DNA of 64,000 nucleotides from an uncultured Granulosicoccaceae bacterium (lineage in GTDB: Bacteria > Pseudomonadota > Gammaproteobacteria > Granulosicoccales > Granulosicoccaceae): assembly GCA_938035525.1 (NCBI GenBank), contig CALHOI010000020.1, forward strand, positions 1 to 64,000. The letters run 5' to 3'. This document shows, piece after piece, positions 58,859-64,000 of the stretch (position 1 is its first letter; each line of letters opens with the position of its first letter). A program made the position numbers and the translations under genes. A model generated the notes under the pieces. That model was not told the DNA's origin and ran no database searches. It was given only the letters and a program-made list of their open reading frames with translations.

Positions 58859-59896
58859 CTACGGCAGCACGTTAATATGCTCGTCCCAGGTTCTTCGCAC
58901 AATTGCTCGCATGCGATCTGTGTTGATTTCTAACGGCAGTTGCTGGCTCTGTTGTGGTTCAAAACCTGACTCACCTAAATGTCCAACACTAAAACGAAAC
59001 ACATAGCTCGATTCAATTCCCATCCTCAAGTCATTGATTATCAATTGCTCGTTAACCTGGCTTGCTGAAATCTTACCGCCAGTAAACCAGTCCATTCTGG
59101 CAATAGGCCAGTGGTCTGAGTACTGATCTATCATATCGCTGTTACGGTTGTACTGTACAAATTCAACGTGCTGATCTTCATCTAACAGCGAGTAAAAACC
59201 CTCGTAATAGGTGCCTTTATCGATAGACACCAGTCGCCACAGCAACGAAAAAGGCGTGGGTGCAACCAGAACGTTCTCGGTACTCATATTCTGCTGCTGC
59301 AATGATGCGTGAGTTATTGCACTCACGCTACTTTGTAAGACCAGCGTTAAAACCAAATAGGCCGTACTCACTACCAGCCCAGCAATCACAGCCCCCTGCG
59401 CTCGGTGACGGGATCGGAACGCAACCAGCAATGCAATGAGCAAAGGTACTGTGTACAACGGGTCAATAATAAATATCGACCCGATAGCCGTCGGTTCGAT
59501 ATTCAGTGGCCAGAATAGTTGCGTACCATAAATGGTGAAGCCATCTAATACAGCGTGGGTAATCAACACCAGAAACACGCACAGCAACCACTGTGCATAA
59601 GATGGCGCAGACGAGCGCAAATTGTCCACGGCGCTTGCGCTTAACCACCTATCGGGATAGCACCGTTTAAATAACCAAGCAATGGGAATGCTTGCCAAAC
59701 TCAACACAAAAAGGGAGTGGCTCCAGCTTCTGTGGAAAGTGAAGCTGGCTACCGCATCGCTGTAATGCACCAGCACATCCATGTCGGGCAAGGTTCCCAA
59801 CAGTCCTCCAACCAGCATGGCACGCGGACCAAGCTTGCTTCCAAGCGTTGCCTGCGCAACGGCAGCACCCAACGCAAATTGTGACAGCGAATCCAC
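58859..59896 (-). CDS. Inner-membrane metal-dependent hydrolase (YdjM/LexA-regulated type)
   Basis: 345 residues. N-terminal MDSLSQFALGAAVAQATLG, then LLGTLPDMDVLVHY and FHRSWSHSLFVLSL with the His/Asp metal ligands, and several membrane segments (LLCVFLVLITHAVLDGFTIYGTQ). The C-terminal ~130 residues are soluble. This matches the DUF457 membrane hydrolase family; the substrate is unknown. No LexA box was seen upstream. Confidence 0.85.
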   Translation of the reverse strand: MDSLSQFALGAAVAQATLGSKLGPRAMLVGGLLGTLPDMDVLVHYSDAVASFTFHRSWSHSLFVLSLASIPIAWLFKRCYPDRWLSASAVDNLRSSAPSYAQWLLCVFLVLITHAVLDGFTIYGTQLFWPLNIEPTAIGSIFIIDPLYTVPLLIALLVAFRSRHRAQGAVIAGLVVSTAYLVLTLVLQSSVSAITHASLQQQNMSTENVLVAPTPFSLLWRLVSIDKGTYYEGFYSLLDEDQHVEFVQYNRNSDMIDQYSDHWPIARMDWFTGGKISASQVNEQLIINDLRMGIESSYVFRFSVGHLGESGFEPQQSQQLPLEINTDRMRAIVRRTWDEHINVLP

Positions 59897-59973: not shown

Positions 59974-60040
59974 GAACTAGCGCTGAACTAGTAGCGCTGA
60001 ACTAGTAGCGCTGAACTACCAGCGCTGAACTACTAGCGCC
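59974..60040. repeat. 14 bp tandem repeat between the membrane hydrolase and the zincin lipoprotein
   Basis: One short (11 bp) and four 14 bp copies of GAACTAGTAGCGCT, with the palindromes ACTAGT and AGCGCT in each unit, end 11 bases before the stop of the next gene (60052). Confidence 0.9.
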
Positions 60041-60051
60041 AATAACAGTAA

Positions 60052-61446
60052 CTATTTTGGGCTTTGCGGGTGAACCGGCGACTCCACACGAATTTTTTCT
60101 CTGAACAACTCTGCAGACTCAGTTGAACGAGTGCTGTCGACGGAACGCGTATCGGGTTGTGACGCAGCAATAGATACCGGTGTCTGATTGTCGCACCAAT
60201 GAACACCAGGATTCATGGGTTCGGCATCACTTAGCGTATTGTCAAGATAACTGACCATACCCGCACTCATGTTCACGACCAAATCGGTTGCCAATCGAGC
60301 ACGTGGATTAACCAGCGGGTCGGCCAGGCGGTTGCGTTGCCCCCAGCCCACCAGTAAATCGTTACAAGTGTAGTTAGTGTCATCAACGGGTTTATTGGTA
60401 AAACCGACATTAACAATAGAGTCATAGTAGTAGGCCATAACCACACCTTCTACCAATTGCGCCAAGTCTTCTCGCGGTGTGGAGTAGCTATACATCTGAA
60501 TGGCGCCATCGGTTGACATAAACTGACCCAACTGCGCAGGGGTTGCCGCATTTTGAGCATCTGTCGCAGTCTCTCCCTGATACATCACCTGACCAAAGCT
60601 TTGGAGCTCTGTACCGGTTAGCGGAAACTGTGCATACAATGCTGGGGATAACCAATGATCAGAGATGCTTCTTACCGCGTCCCAAGCCGACAAACTGGTA
60701 TCCAACGTCGCTATTTGTGGACGAGGCATAAAGTCGGTTGCATGCGCAAGCTCATGAAACAACAAGCGCATTAGCGGTAGTCGCAAGTCTTCGAATGGAC
60801 GCACTGACGCGTCTTCCAAGCTGTAGTAAGGCCACAGCGATTGACCATCAGCGCCAGCAATGCGGCGTAAGAACCAAAACTGTAAATCAGCACCGAAATC
60901 GGAGCGAAAATCTTCCTGCAAGGAAACACTGCCTTTTTCATCGACTGATGACCAAAGATAAATTGGGTCGATTTGAATAGCGCCGGTTAATGCTGTGTAA
61001 AAGGACGGGCGCACCTCACTGCCAATTAAAATGGCAGTGGTAGAAGAGAACATGTTTAATAAGTCATCAGGCGCTGTGCGCACAACAGCTTCAAAACGTT
61101 CTCCCATCCAATCATGGGTAACAAGCACCCGATCCATGATTTGATCGATGGTGGGCTGATTAACACCATCACCAATAAACGGAAGCGTTGTTAGTGCGCA
61201 TGATTCAGCGGCTGTACTAATGAGAATACATTGCTTGAGGACCGAACCATGGGGACTGTTGGCCCGATAAGGATATACGAATTCGGTACCGCGGACTTCA
61301 AACGTGTCGCCACCTGTACCGGGATCAATCGCAATACCGCCAGTACCACCACCAACGATTGCCTGATCGTCGTCGCGCTCACTGCAGGCACCCAATACAA
61401 GTGTCAGTACAACCGTTGATACAACTTTGCCGACAGAGAACTTCAT
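60052..61446 (-). CDS. Lipoprotein with zinc-metallopeptidase (HExxH) motif
   Basis: About 464 residues from the ATG at 61446; a longer frame to 61512 runs into the OmpA gene. Lipobox VLTLVLGAC. The zincin motif FHELAHATDF is near residue 232, and PREDLAQLVEGVVM near residue 325 is a good third-ligand Glu site as in gluzincins. Cys residues near both ends may pair. The family is not recognised. It is probably a secreted or outer-membrane-anchored protease of the cell surface, cotranscribed with the OmpA-like gene 28 bases upstream; activity is inference. Confidence 0.8.
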   Translation of the reverse strand: MKFSVGKVVSTVVLTLVLGACSERDDDQAIVGGGTGGIAIDPGTGGDTFEVRGTEFVYPYRANSPHGSVLKQCILISTAAESCALTTLPFIGDGVNQPTIDQIMDRVLVTHDWMGERFEAVVRTAPDDLLNMFSSTTAILIGSEVRPSFYTALTGAIQIDPIYLWSSVDEKGSVSLQEDFRSDFGADLQFWFLRRIAGADGQSLWPYYSLEDASVRPFEDLRLPLMRLLFHELAHATDFMPRPQIATLDTSLSAWDAVRSISDHWLSPALYAQFPLTGTELQSFGQVMYQGETATDAQNAATPAQLGQFMSTDGAIQMYSYSTPREDLAQLVEGVVMAYYYDSIVNVGFTNKPVDDTNYTCNDLLVGWGQRNRLADPLVNPRARLATDLVVNMSAGMVSYLDNTLSDAEPMNPGVHWCDNQTPVSIAASQPDTRSVDSTRSTESAELFREKIRVESPVHPQSPK

Positions 61447-61474
61447 TCGCAACCCTTCACTTGCAATCCAAGCG

Positions 61475-62578
61475 TTATTTAATGCGAATGTCTGCCCTTC
61501 TGTTGCTGGCACGACCTTCGACTGTGTTATTCGAAGCTACCGGTCTTGTCTCACCGAATCCTCGCACGCTTAAGCGTGTTCTGCTAATGCCTTTGGATTC
61601 CAGGTATCGCCGAACACTTTCAGCACGCCTCAAAGACAACGCCTGATTATAACGTTCCGATGCTATCCAGTCTGTATGTCCTTCCAAACTGACAGAAACA
61701 TCCGATTCGGCCAATGCAGTAGCAAGCTTATCAAGCTTACTAGCGGCTAGAGGCGTGATTTCTGAGCGGTCGAAGTCAAAATTGACCGTAGTCACACTCG
61801 CTAAATCAGCGCTTTTTGGCGTTACAGTTTTAACTGGTTCAACTTTTTCGGTCTCTGGCACGCTCGCACCGCGTGTGCTGGCAGCGATAGGCGCGGCACT
61901 GCGAACCTTGCCAAACCGCTTCAGCACACTGATAGATGCATAGTGCATATCTGTGTCAAGGGCTCGGTATTCGCCACGCAAAGCAAAGCCATTACTAAAA
62001 CCGTATTCAGCCCCAAGCCCCAAAGCCAGATGGACTTTATTTTTTACGGTGTGATCTAACTCTGAGTCAGCGAAAACGGTACCCAGACCCACACGAGTGA
62101 ACAGCGATAAACCTTCTCGCGTACCCATTCCAGAGCCCGTTTTGTTCGCAGTCAGCCGGCTACGACTATTGAACAAATAAGCGATGCCACTAAGGCCAAA
62201 TACCTGATAGTCAACGGTGCCAACGTCCTCGCCTAAAAATGAAATGCCGGCTGACCCAAAGTCACCATAGTAAGCTTCTGCCGATAATCGACTGGTAAAA
62301 TCATAACCGGCAGTTATGTGGAAACCGCTATCACTGTCGTCGCTGACTGCAAGACTCTCGTTAGGGACTTTCGGTTCAAGCTGTGTTGCACCCACGCCCA
62401 CACCCACATACGCTCGAGGGGTAAATTCAAGTGATCTATCGTCGGCTCTGGCAGCCATTAACAAAGCCGCACAACACAAAGCGCTTAAACTGAAAATTGC
62501 CAGGGCTCGCCCGGAACGCTTGCTTTTATGCTTTGTTTGGCAACGGAGCGTTTGACTGCGGTTAAATAGTGTCATCAC
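61475..62578 (-). CDS. OmpA-family outer-membrane protein
   Basis: 367 residues (start GTG 62578 or ATG 62575). Signal segment ALAIFSLSALCCAALLMAARA; an eight-strand barrel (about 50-225) with YVGVGVGATQLEP, GFHITAGYDF and EYRALDTDMHYASISVLKRFG; a Pro/Val/Lys linker; and the OmpA wall-binding domain (VTTVNFDFDRSEI, SLEGHTDWIAS, NRRADIRIK). The start overlaps the stop of the repeat protein upstream (TGATG), so they are coupled. Confidence 0.93.
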   Translation of the reverse strand: MMTLFNRSQTLRCQTKHKSKRSGRALAIFSLSALCCAALLMAARADDRSLEFTPRAYVGVGVGATQLEPKVPNESLAVSDDSDSGFHITAGYDFTSRLSAEAYYGDFGSAGISFLGEDVGTVDYQVFGLSGIAYLFNSRSRLTANKTGSGMGTREGLSLFTRVGLGTVFADSELDHTVKNKVHLALGLGAEYGFSNGFALRGEYRALDTDMHYASISVLKRFGKVRSAAPIAASTRGASVPETEKVEPVKTVTPKSADLASVTTVNFDFDRSEITPLAASKLDKLATALAESDVSVSLEGHTDWIASERYNQALSLRRAESVRRYLESKGISRTRLSVRGFGETRPVASNNTVEGRASNRRADIRIK

Positions 62579-64000
62579 GCAACTCCACCTTTTTGGTTTC
62601 GTCGGTAGCGGGCAAGTTGTCTAAAACCGTACAACCAACTCAACAACAAAAATGACAGTAGAGAAGCGCTACCTAATGCAGAGCCTTCAACACCGACTTC
62701 TATTGTCAGGTTGTCGCAATTACATTCTTCGAAATCGTTGACTCCGTTGTCATTGATATCACTGAAGCGCAGTACATCAACAGCGACGGTACCGGTGCTT
62801 TGATTGCCAGCCGTGTCTTCGATAACGTAAAGGAATGTATCCATGCCGATAAATTCATCAATCGGCTTATAGCTGATTTGCTGGCCTTGAATCTCGATCG
62901 TCGCGTTTGGAGATTCGGATACGCTGATTATTGTCAAACCCCCGCCCGGTGAATCCGCGTCGTTTGCCAGAACGTCGATCAGCGTCATGGTGCCTTGAGT
63001 CACGCTGGCCATGTCAGGATTTGCAACGGTTTCGTTGACGCCATCGCTAATAGGCACGAAGTTGTCGCCAGCATCAGCACCACTGGTGTCACTACCGCCG
63101 GCATCCGCACCTGCATCACTGCCGCCCGCATCCGCACCTGCATCACTACCGCCCGCATCCGCACCTGCATCACTGCCGCCCGCATCTGCGCCCGCGTCAC
63201 TACCACCAGCATCCGCACCTGCATCACTGCCACCAGCATCTGCACCTGCGTCATTGCCGCCAGCATCTGAGCCGGCATCACTACCGCCAGCATCCGCACC
63301 CGCATCACTGCCGCCAGCATCCGCACCCGCATCACTGCCACCAGCATCCGCACCCGCATCACTGCCACCAGCGTCTGCACCGGCATCGCTTCCACCCGCA
63401 TCTGATCCGCCAGCGGTGCTACCGCCCGAGTTTCCATCAAACTCAATATCATCAACAAAGGCGAAGTTAACGCCTTCGGCATCCTCGCCGTTAATGAGAA
63501 TCATGACAGGATTTGTGCCTGGAGCAACGCTTATACCTGGTGGTAAATCGGGGTCGTTCTCGTTGAGCAATAAAAAGTAGATACCATCGTCGACACCGGG
63601 TATCACGAACTCGCCTGAAATGTCGGTGTTGATCGACGAACCAAGCTGTTGATCTATACCTGGGTCGTAAACACCGTTACCGTTTGAGTCTGTGAACAAC
63701 GTAAGCTCAATATCACTGATACCAGCTTCATCATCATTCACTGAACCGTCATTGTTTTCATCTTTGAACACAGTGCCGGTGATGACATTTAAACTGTCGG
63801 CTAAAAAATACCCTGATACGCCACCGTAAATATCGGCACCATCACCGAAAACAATTTTTTCGTCGTTGGTGTCTTGCGGAAAACTGGCAACATCAAACAA
63901 GTTGTGAACGCCATCGACAACATCGTTGGCAAAATAAGAAAATCCATAATAGACCTGACCCGCTGTCAAGCCCATTCTTTCATGAGACACAAAAGCCATA
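62575..64000 (-). CDS. SdrD_B-type repeat surface protein with C-terminal membrane tail (partial, N-terminus beyond right edge)
   Basis: 474+ residues; the frame runs to the right edge, where an ATG at 63999 is probably internal. Order: a Ca-binding-like YYGFSYFANDV domain; an SdrD_B domain (GTVFKDENNDGSVNDDEAGI); Gly-Ser-Asp-Ala-Gly repeats (about 27 bp units); a cadherin-like/bacterial Ig-like domain (TLIDVLANDADSPGGGL); then a tail DINDNGVNDFEECNCD, hydrophobic segment SLLSFLLLSWLYGF and a basic end RQLARYRRN. The tail resembles prokaryotic C-terminal sorting signals. A surface role is inference. Confidence 0.85.
   Translation of the reverse strand, partial: MAFVSHERMGLTAGQVYYGFSYFANDVVDGVHNLFDVASFPQDTNDEKIVFGDGADIYGGVSGYFLADSLNVITGTVFKDENNDGSVNDDEAGISDIELTLFTDSNGNGVYDPGIDQQLGSSINTDISGEFVIPGVDDGIYFLLLNENDPDLPPGISVAPGTNPVMILINGEDAEGVNFAFVDDIEFDGNSGGSTAGGSDAGGSDAGADAGGSDAGADAGGSDAGADAGGSDAGADAGGSDAGSDAGGNDAGADAGGSDAGADAGGSDAGADAGGSDAGADAGGSDAGADAGGSDAGADAGGSDTSGADAGDNFVPISDGVNETVANPDMASVTQGTMTLIDVLANDADSPGGGLTIISVSESPNATIEIQGQQISYKPIDEFIGMDTFLYVIEDTAGNQSTGTVAVDVLRFSDINDNGVNDFEECNCDNLTIEVGVEGSALGSASLLSFLLLSWLYGFRQLARYRRNQKGGVA
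63091..63414 (-). repeat. 27 bp tandem repeat coding Gly-Ser-Asp-Ala-Gly linker
   Basis: About twelve copies of a 27-base unit (consensus, plus strand, CATCACTGCCGCCCGCATCCGCACC) encode a repeated GGSDAGADA motif in the right-end protein. Other frames across the array also stay open, but only this frame continues into recognised domains. Confidence 0.9.

Follow-up and report, generated by a model that had tools for sequence, protein, structure and literature searches.

A probable rhombosortase-type surface protein paired with OmpA, and its lineage-restricted zincin-like lipoprotein, in Granulosicoccus

A two-gene core with an added third gene

The window analysed here (bases 1-64000) is the first part of contig G000:C20, which is 118.6 kb long and belongs to a 3.6 Mb draft genome, the relatives of which in named records fall into Granulosicoccaceae and Granulosicoccus. 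At the far end of the window lie three genes of the minus strand, transcribed in the order SDR, OmpA and ZNC, where SDR and ZNC are working names for a surface protein and a HExxH lipoprotein, respectively. This trio is genuine, with the SDR-OmpA pair as its older core and ZNC as an added or lost member restricted to some lineages; since ZNC was not found at many SDR loci, the unit is described as a two-gene core plus a lineage-restricted putative protease. SDR and OmpA very probably function as a pair, and the reading as a whole, i.e., a surface module of two proteins to which a protease was added, stands at about even chances.

Conservation within the genus was followed in 27 genomes, namely that of the window and 26 same-genus relatives, by searching for ZNC and reading its neighbourhood. 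OmpA and ZNC are adjacent in 15 Granulosicoccus genomes, the window's included, and SDR precedes them in 14 of these 15, its position being off the contig in the fifteenth; among these 14 SDRs, three run off a contig end and another is broken into two frames within the repeat. The linkage holds even for SDRs whose identity to that of the window is as low as about 46-67%, the ZNC of the trio occurs in two SDR subclades, and the spacing between OmpA and ZNC is short in most loci. SDR itself is present in 25/27 genomes, the two misses being genomes 68% and 74% complete. At loci lacking ZNC where the contig continues, OmpA comes after SDR, namely in G017, G003, G021, G016 and, across a gap of N, in G002; in G017, ydjM stands directly after OmpA. 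Two genomes in which ZNC is unlinked carry a second and much longer SDR-domain protein (G016:C59:43929-44873 and G005:C114:74108-74902, with open frames of 1517 and 1399 amino acids (aa), respectively).

Organisation of the locus

The SDR gene is clipped by the end of the window, which holds its C-terminal 474 codons (62575..64000, minus strand). The full gene (G000:C20 62575-64890) extends 890 bases outside the window and encodes 771 aa; a preliminary description of the locus had rightly recognised this gene, and its extent is corrected here. The protein is composed of a signal peptide, a 310-aa N domain located mostly beyond the window, a SdrD_B-like domain, an acidic Gly/Ser/Asp/Ala repeat linker, Big_9 and a sorting tail. 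A 27-bp repeat array of 11.6 copies (63089..63402, minus strand) codes for the acidic DAGGSDAGA linker. No Pfam or NCBIfam family matched the N domain, and its structure model, built from nine similar sequences, was poor, with a predicted local distance difference test score (pLDDT) of 48. SDR had been presented as an SdrD_B/Ig-like repeat protein with a sorting-like tail, of which Big_9 (E 9e-14) and the tail stand; the SdrD_B match falls under the cut-off in the window protein (19.2 vs 29.7 bits), homologues scoring above it.

The OmpA partner gene (61475..62578, minus strand) encodes a signal peptide, an OmpA-type barrel and a peptidoglycan-binding OmpA domain, with matches to PF13505 (barrel, E 8.8e-14), PF01389 (E 2.6e-8) and PF00691 (OmpA domain, E 1.2e-23) that bear out its initial reading as a wall-anchored OmpA barrel. 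Its GTG start forms with the SDR stop a four-base GTGA overlap, the alternative ATG, one base into the stop, giving TGATG; another 28 bases separate the OmpA stop from the ATG of ZNC, and the tight packing of the three same-strand genes had thus been correctly reported. The gene of the zincin-like lipoprotein ZNC (60055..61446, minus strand; 464 aa) starts at the ATG at 61446 rather than at the GTG farther upstream where the mechanically called open reading frame begins, the stop extending to 60052, and carries a lipobox LGAC (C21), H231-E232-x-x-H235, Y319 and E326-D327.

The SDR-OmpA pair beyond the genus

In a class sample of 369 genomes, the SDR N domain was found in 13 genomes from five families, two of the 13 being weak partial matches; four gammaproteobacterial families are represented besides that of Granulosicoccus. 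At most SDR loci outside Granulosicoccus, the next gene encodes an OmpA of this subfamily and in many cases shares four bases (NTGA) with SDR, and ahead of these overlaps a GGAG-like purine run, resembling a ribosome site, lies inside the SDR tail. A stop/start overlap with a ribosome site in the upstream gene is the usual layout of translational coupling. In a phylum-wide sample, SDR was found only in the genome of the window, which points to a limited and patchy distribution of the pair.

SDR and OmpA are joined in a single open frame in G086, G110 and G197, three genomes that each belong to a different family. The junction is ordered as a Gly-rich motif, a hydrophobic stretch, an Arg/Lys cluster, a second hydrophobic stretch terminating in an Ala-type signal peptidase site, and OmpA, where the second hydrophobic segment reads as the signal peptide of OmpA. 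These in-frame fusions constitute a Rosetta-stone link between SDR and OmpA and, since both processing signals are kept, rhombosortase and signal peptidase could cut the fused chain into its two proteins. A fourth candidate fusion (G002, L192) was rejected because the scaffold has a stretch of N within it. In G031, which belongs to another genus of the family, a 2249-aa protein (L182:6532-13281) has an OmpA domain mid-chain, and its matches to the SDR N domain are split.

Probable sorting tail of SDR and rhombosortase

The C-terminal tail of SDR (62596..62778, minus strand) is tripartite, with ECNCDNLTIEVGVEGSALGS, a hydrophobic stretch and a basic cluster, and is very likely a rhombosortase signal, being read as a divergent GlyGly-CTERM. 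The same motif-hydrophobic-basic arrangement is conserved in 10 homologues; the genus consensus, ECxCDNLTxETGVxGSGxGSxS followed by a hydrophobic stretch and RR, matches in position distant SDR tails such as IETGLQGHGAGSLGWLLAPLALVGLRRHR, and three of ten distant tails pass the TIGR03501 cut-off of 15.5 bits (16.1, 16.8 and 19.9). A rhombosortase (TIGR03902) is encoded in the genome of the window (G000, C33:70498-70950; 152.9 bits vs a cut-off of 84) and was above cut-off in all 20 same-genus genomes tested. In the class sample, it accompanies 13/13 SDR-positive vs 114/356 SDR-negative genomes (127/369 overall; Fisher p 6e-7), a p-value which ignores kinship and is inflated by related genomes, the SDR signal spanning five families. 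The type II secretion system (T2SS) secretin GspD is over cut-off in all 13 SDR-positive class genomes plus G023. In Vibrio cholerae, rhombosortase cuts GlyGly-CTERM tails, the new C-terminus gains glycerophosphoethanolamine and the T2SS carries the protein to the surface (PMC6219818). Elsewhere in the genome of the window (G000:C28:1693-1758), a canonical GlyGly-CTERM tail over cut-off is borne by a serine-protease-like protein, likely a second rhombosortase target.

The ZNC family and its predicted active site

By its sequence, ZNC represents an unnamed and widespread family of putative zincins with a clear active-site signature. Its 163 relatives span the Gamma- and Betaproteobacteria, the Campylobacterota and one metagenome-assembled genome of Thermodesulfobacteriota; they are lipoproteins of ~420-500 aa or bear PKD-like domains at the N-terminus. 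The catalytic part matched no Pfam or NCBIfam model over cut-off, and no credible match was found between the ZNC profile and PDB sequences; Pfam hits were at chance level throughout, and Peptidase_M91, one of them (E 0.016-0.02, under its cut-off), was rejected as its family.

Across an alignment of 46 divergent sequences, E232, H235, D238, Y319, Y321, E326, D327 and W368 are invariant, H231 is kept in 45/46, with L047 as the exception, and the seven-residue spacing of Y319 and E326 is kept in 44/46. Because they are conserved across these relatives, the HELAH (231-235) and ED (326-327) motifs, which the preliminary description had recognised, are not a product of chance. The exception L047/L027 (G022:C313) is a second ZNC copy at a contig end; it has Tyr in place of the first zinc His (YELTH) and is possibly inactive. 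The AlphaFold2 model of ZNC is confident (mean pLDDT 89, predicted template modelling score 0.86; pLDDT ~97 around both motifs) and, in a second-look structural alignment, its neighbours are nearly all gluzincins, the top one being the catalytic domain of a gluzincin (Z 7.6), which is consistent with the proposed motifs forming one zinc site. The first His and the Glu are 95 residues apart, leaving room for a helical insert at residues about 242-311. From motif conservation and the model, ZNC is in all likelihood an active zinc peptidase; the Ser at position +2 leads us to expect it at the outer membrane.

In 12 loci of Shewanella and other Alteromonadales (L068, L087, L091, L095-L097, L102, L104, L107, L112, L113 and L119), an N-terminally extended ZNC relative sits in a fixed neighbourhood of perM-like, bepA-like, arsC-like, DUF2069-like and then hda-like genes, names being given by inspection. 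This may hint at a role in envelope quality control.

Comparison with known systems

The closest architectural parallel is found in Myxococcus, where the MYXO-CTERM receptor TraA and its partner TraB, which has an OmpA domain, are encoded by open reading frames sharing four bases (PMC3325183), and where a single protein of Myxococcus xanthus, MXAN_5598, combines an adhesin region with an internal MYXO-CTERM and an OmpA barrel (PMC11980579). The likeness lies in a sorted surface protein followed by an OmpA-domain outer-membrane partner, in the four-base overlap and in natural fusions with an internal sorting tag; the differences lie in a tail of GlyGly-CTERM/rhombosortase rather than MYXO-CTERM/myxosortase type and in ZNC as a third gene. 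Unlike TraA, ten SDRs had no PA14, Cys-rich repeat or MYXO-CTERM match in Pfam or NCBIfam, and OmpA reaches 67.9 bits vs a cut-off of 700 with the TraB model NF033763, over the OmpA domain only. As judged from sequence, the pair resembles TraA/TraB in architecture and fails membership at the sequence level. The preliminary remark that the combination was not recognised as a described system is thus only half right, a sorted protein with an overlapping OmpA being known from TraAB and MXAN_5598.

VesB-type rhombosortase targets of Vibrio cholerae (PMC3237569; PMC6219818) share with SDR the tripartite tail and a genome encoding rhombosortase and T2SS secretin, but SDR is no protease, and an OmpA partner dedicated to it is encoded in overlap with it or fused to it. 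The text of the 2011 GlyGly-CTERM paper does not contain “OmpA” (PMC3237569), and no description of a GlyGly-CTERM/OmpA pair was found within the library searched. PdsO (TIGR03789), from the proteobacterial dedicated sortase system, is likewise a member of the OmpA family associated with a protein sorted at its C-terminus; the OmpA described here, however, scores 75.8 vs a cut-off of 152.2 bits, and SDR has no LPXTG-type signal.

As regards ZNC, the nearest functional analogues may be PPEP-1, PPEP-2 and PPEP-3, which are of the MEROPS M34 type. ZNC shares with them HExxH plus Glu, a Tyr (catalytic in the PPEPs) seven residues before the Glu and, as for PPEP-1 and -2, a gene next to that of a surface protein. 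PPEP-3 uses His153/His157/Glu197 with Tyr190, a Tyr-Glu spacing of 7 residues, and the substrates of PPEP-1 and PPEP-2 are encoded next door (PMC12828418). The matching Tyr-Glu spacing lends further weight to the zincin reading of ZNC. ZNC differs in being a Gram-negative lipoprotein, in the distance from first His to Glu (about 95 vs 44 residues) and in having no sequence match, the structural Z with PPEP-3 being 5.6-5.8. A putative zinc metallopeptidase of Bacteroides caccae (4l7a) aligns with Z 6.7 over 190 residues, a value under 8 and accompanied by 9% identity, with no sequence-level relation detected.

Proposed mechanism and alternative explanations

Following Sec export, SDR would be cleaved by rhombosortase and acquire a lipid tether, and the T2SS would deliver it to the surface. 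OmpA, translated through the stop/start overlap from the message of SDR, would reside in the outer membrane, attached to peptidoglycan, and act as the partner of SDR in docking or presentation, as TraB for TraA. It had been called a dedicated anchor; because a covalent anchor is expected from rhombosortase, it is better read as a partner. In two Granulosicoccus lineages, the third gene would add ZNC at the outer membrane, where it would most likely cut SDR so as to mature or shed it. Sequence and co-occurrence support the export and rhombosortase steps, and overlap and fusion the SDR-OmpA partnership; the two proteins would be in contact and may serve in adhesion. That ZNC trims or releases SDR is a best guess, drawn from gene linkage and the analogy with PPEP-1/-2, and whether its substrate is SDR or OmpA at all is close to a coin toss.

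Several observations weigh against this scheme. Of the 25 Granulosicoccus genomes with SDR, 11 show no ZNC at this locus, some of their contigs breaking at the repeat, and none was found in the SDR-OmpA loci of other families. Conservation of gene order, by which the preliminary grouping was to be judged, extends to the trio in 14 Granulosicoccus genomes, so that the grouping is not refuted, but it does not extend to these loci. The length of the SDR linker does not track ZNC, a long acidic linker having been rejected as a mark of ZNC-bearing species as lengths overlap, and no cleavage site is predicted for ZNC. Foldseek gave no significant match for the ZNC model (E-values above 1) and, since structural Z values are all under 8, the zincin class is supported rather than a family. 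The tail of the window SDR scores 8.1-12.6 bits (12.6 in the genome scan), below the TIGR03501 cut-off. Neither SDR nor a paired OmpA lies near the ZNC relatives of Shewanella, Massilia, Inhella and Campylobacterota, and the general job of the family therefore needs neither. A single clade of operon-linked ZNCs was rejected by the approximately unbiased test, a result that is unclean as regards separate captures, since the linked ZNCs have two unlinked copies among them, one of which is at a contig end; as the operon-linked ZNCs do not form one clean clade, the linkage could be position inheritance.

Nearly as likely as the scheme above, at somewhat under even chances, ZNC would be a co-transcribed passenger, namely a general envelope protease inserted between OmpA and ydjM. 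A broad and normally stand-alone family, its fixed but different neighbourhood in the Alteromonadales and the many SDR-OmpA loci devoid of it all speak for a passenger, but the linkage persists across divergent SDRs and in two SDR clades, with a spacing that stays short in most loci. It is unlikely that ZNC would process OmpA or aid barrel or surface assembly, by a BepA-like quality control, rather than cut SDR: znc is directly behind ompA and a bepA-like gene adjoins ZNC relatives elsewhere, yet at loci lacking ZNC the OmpA fits the same profile and does without such an enzyme, and no special feature of OmpA was found. That the SDR tail is a plain membrane anchor, leaving SDR in the inner membrane facing the periplasm, would fit the score of the window tail under the GlyGly-CTERM cut-off; it is rendered improbable by homologous tails passing this cut-off, by complete co-occurrence with rhombosortase, by the conserved Gly/Ser motif right before the hydrophobic stretch and by fusions that retain the tail and then a fresh signal peptide. 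OmpA, Ig-repeat and lipoprotein genes are each common and could become neighbours by chance, but with order, strand and four-base overlap kept over many divergent genomes, and with fusions in three families, such an explanation for the three genes is extremely improbable and, for SDR-OmpA, already refuted.

Neighbouring features

Downstream of the trio, and outside the unit, the gene of a YdjM-family membrane protein (58859..59896, minus strand) is a conserved neighbour; the short gap between znc and ydjM holds a 14-bp tandem repeat, ACTAGCGCTGAACT, of 4.6 copies (59976-60039). Upstream of SDR, a frequent neighbour (contig 65621-67324; L002:5622-7325) encodes a lipoprotein with solute-binding-like and VWA-like segments that is 79-88% identical across Granulosicoccus and far more conserved than the trio. 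A promoter and terminator scan returned sites no more numerous than in shuffles. At the contig start (1-123), a perfect array of the hexamer AGGCTC, with 20.5 copies, possibly marks an assembly break at a repeat.

Biological significance

The pairing of a sorted surface protein with OmpA, known from myxobacterial kin recognition, seems to recur with a different sorting enzyme, and this recurrence helps to ask what the general role of the OmpA partner is. With the SDR-OmpA fusions, it can be tested directly whether a sorting tag inside a chain splits it into two proteins, and naming the ZNC family would annotate many hypothetical lipoproteins. More speculatively, and with the odds rather against it, the locus may be a rhombosortase-based counterpart of TraA/TraB in Gammaproteobacteria, i.e., a contact or adhesion receptor and its OmpA partner, sometimes made as a self-separating polyprotein, for which a zincin lipoprotein of an undescribed family would be a built-in release switch. 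The marine genus Granulosicoccus inhabits kelp blades (PMC9238374), and an adhesin with a release protease would therefore, if true, be ecologically relevant.

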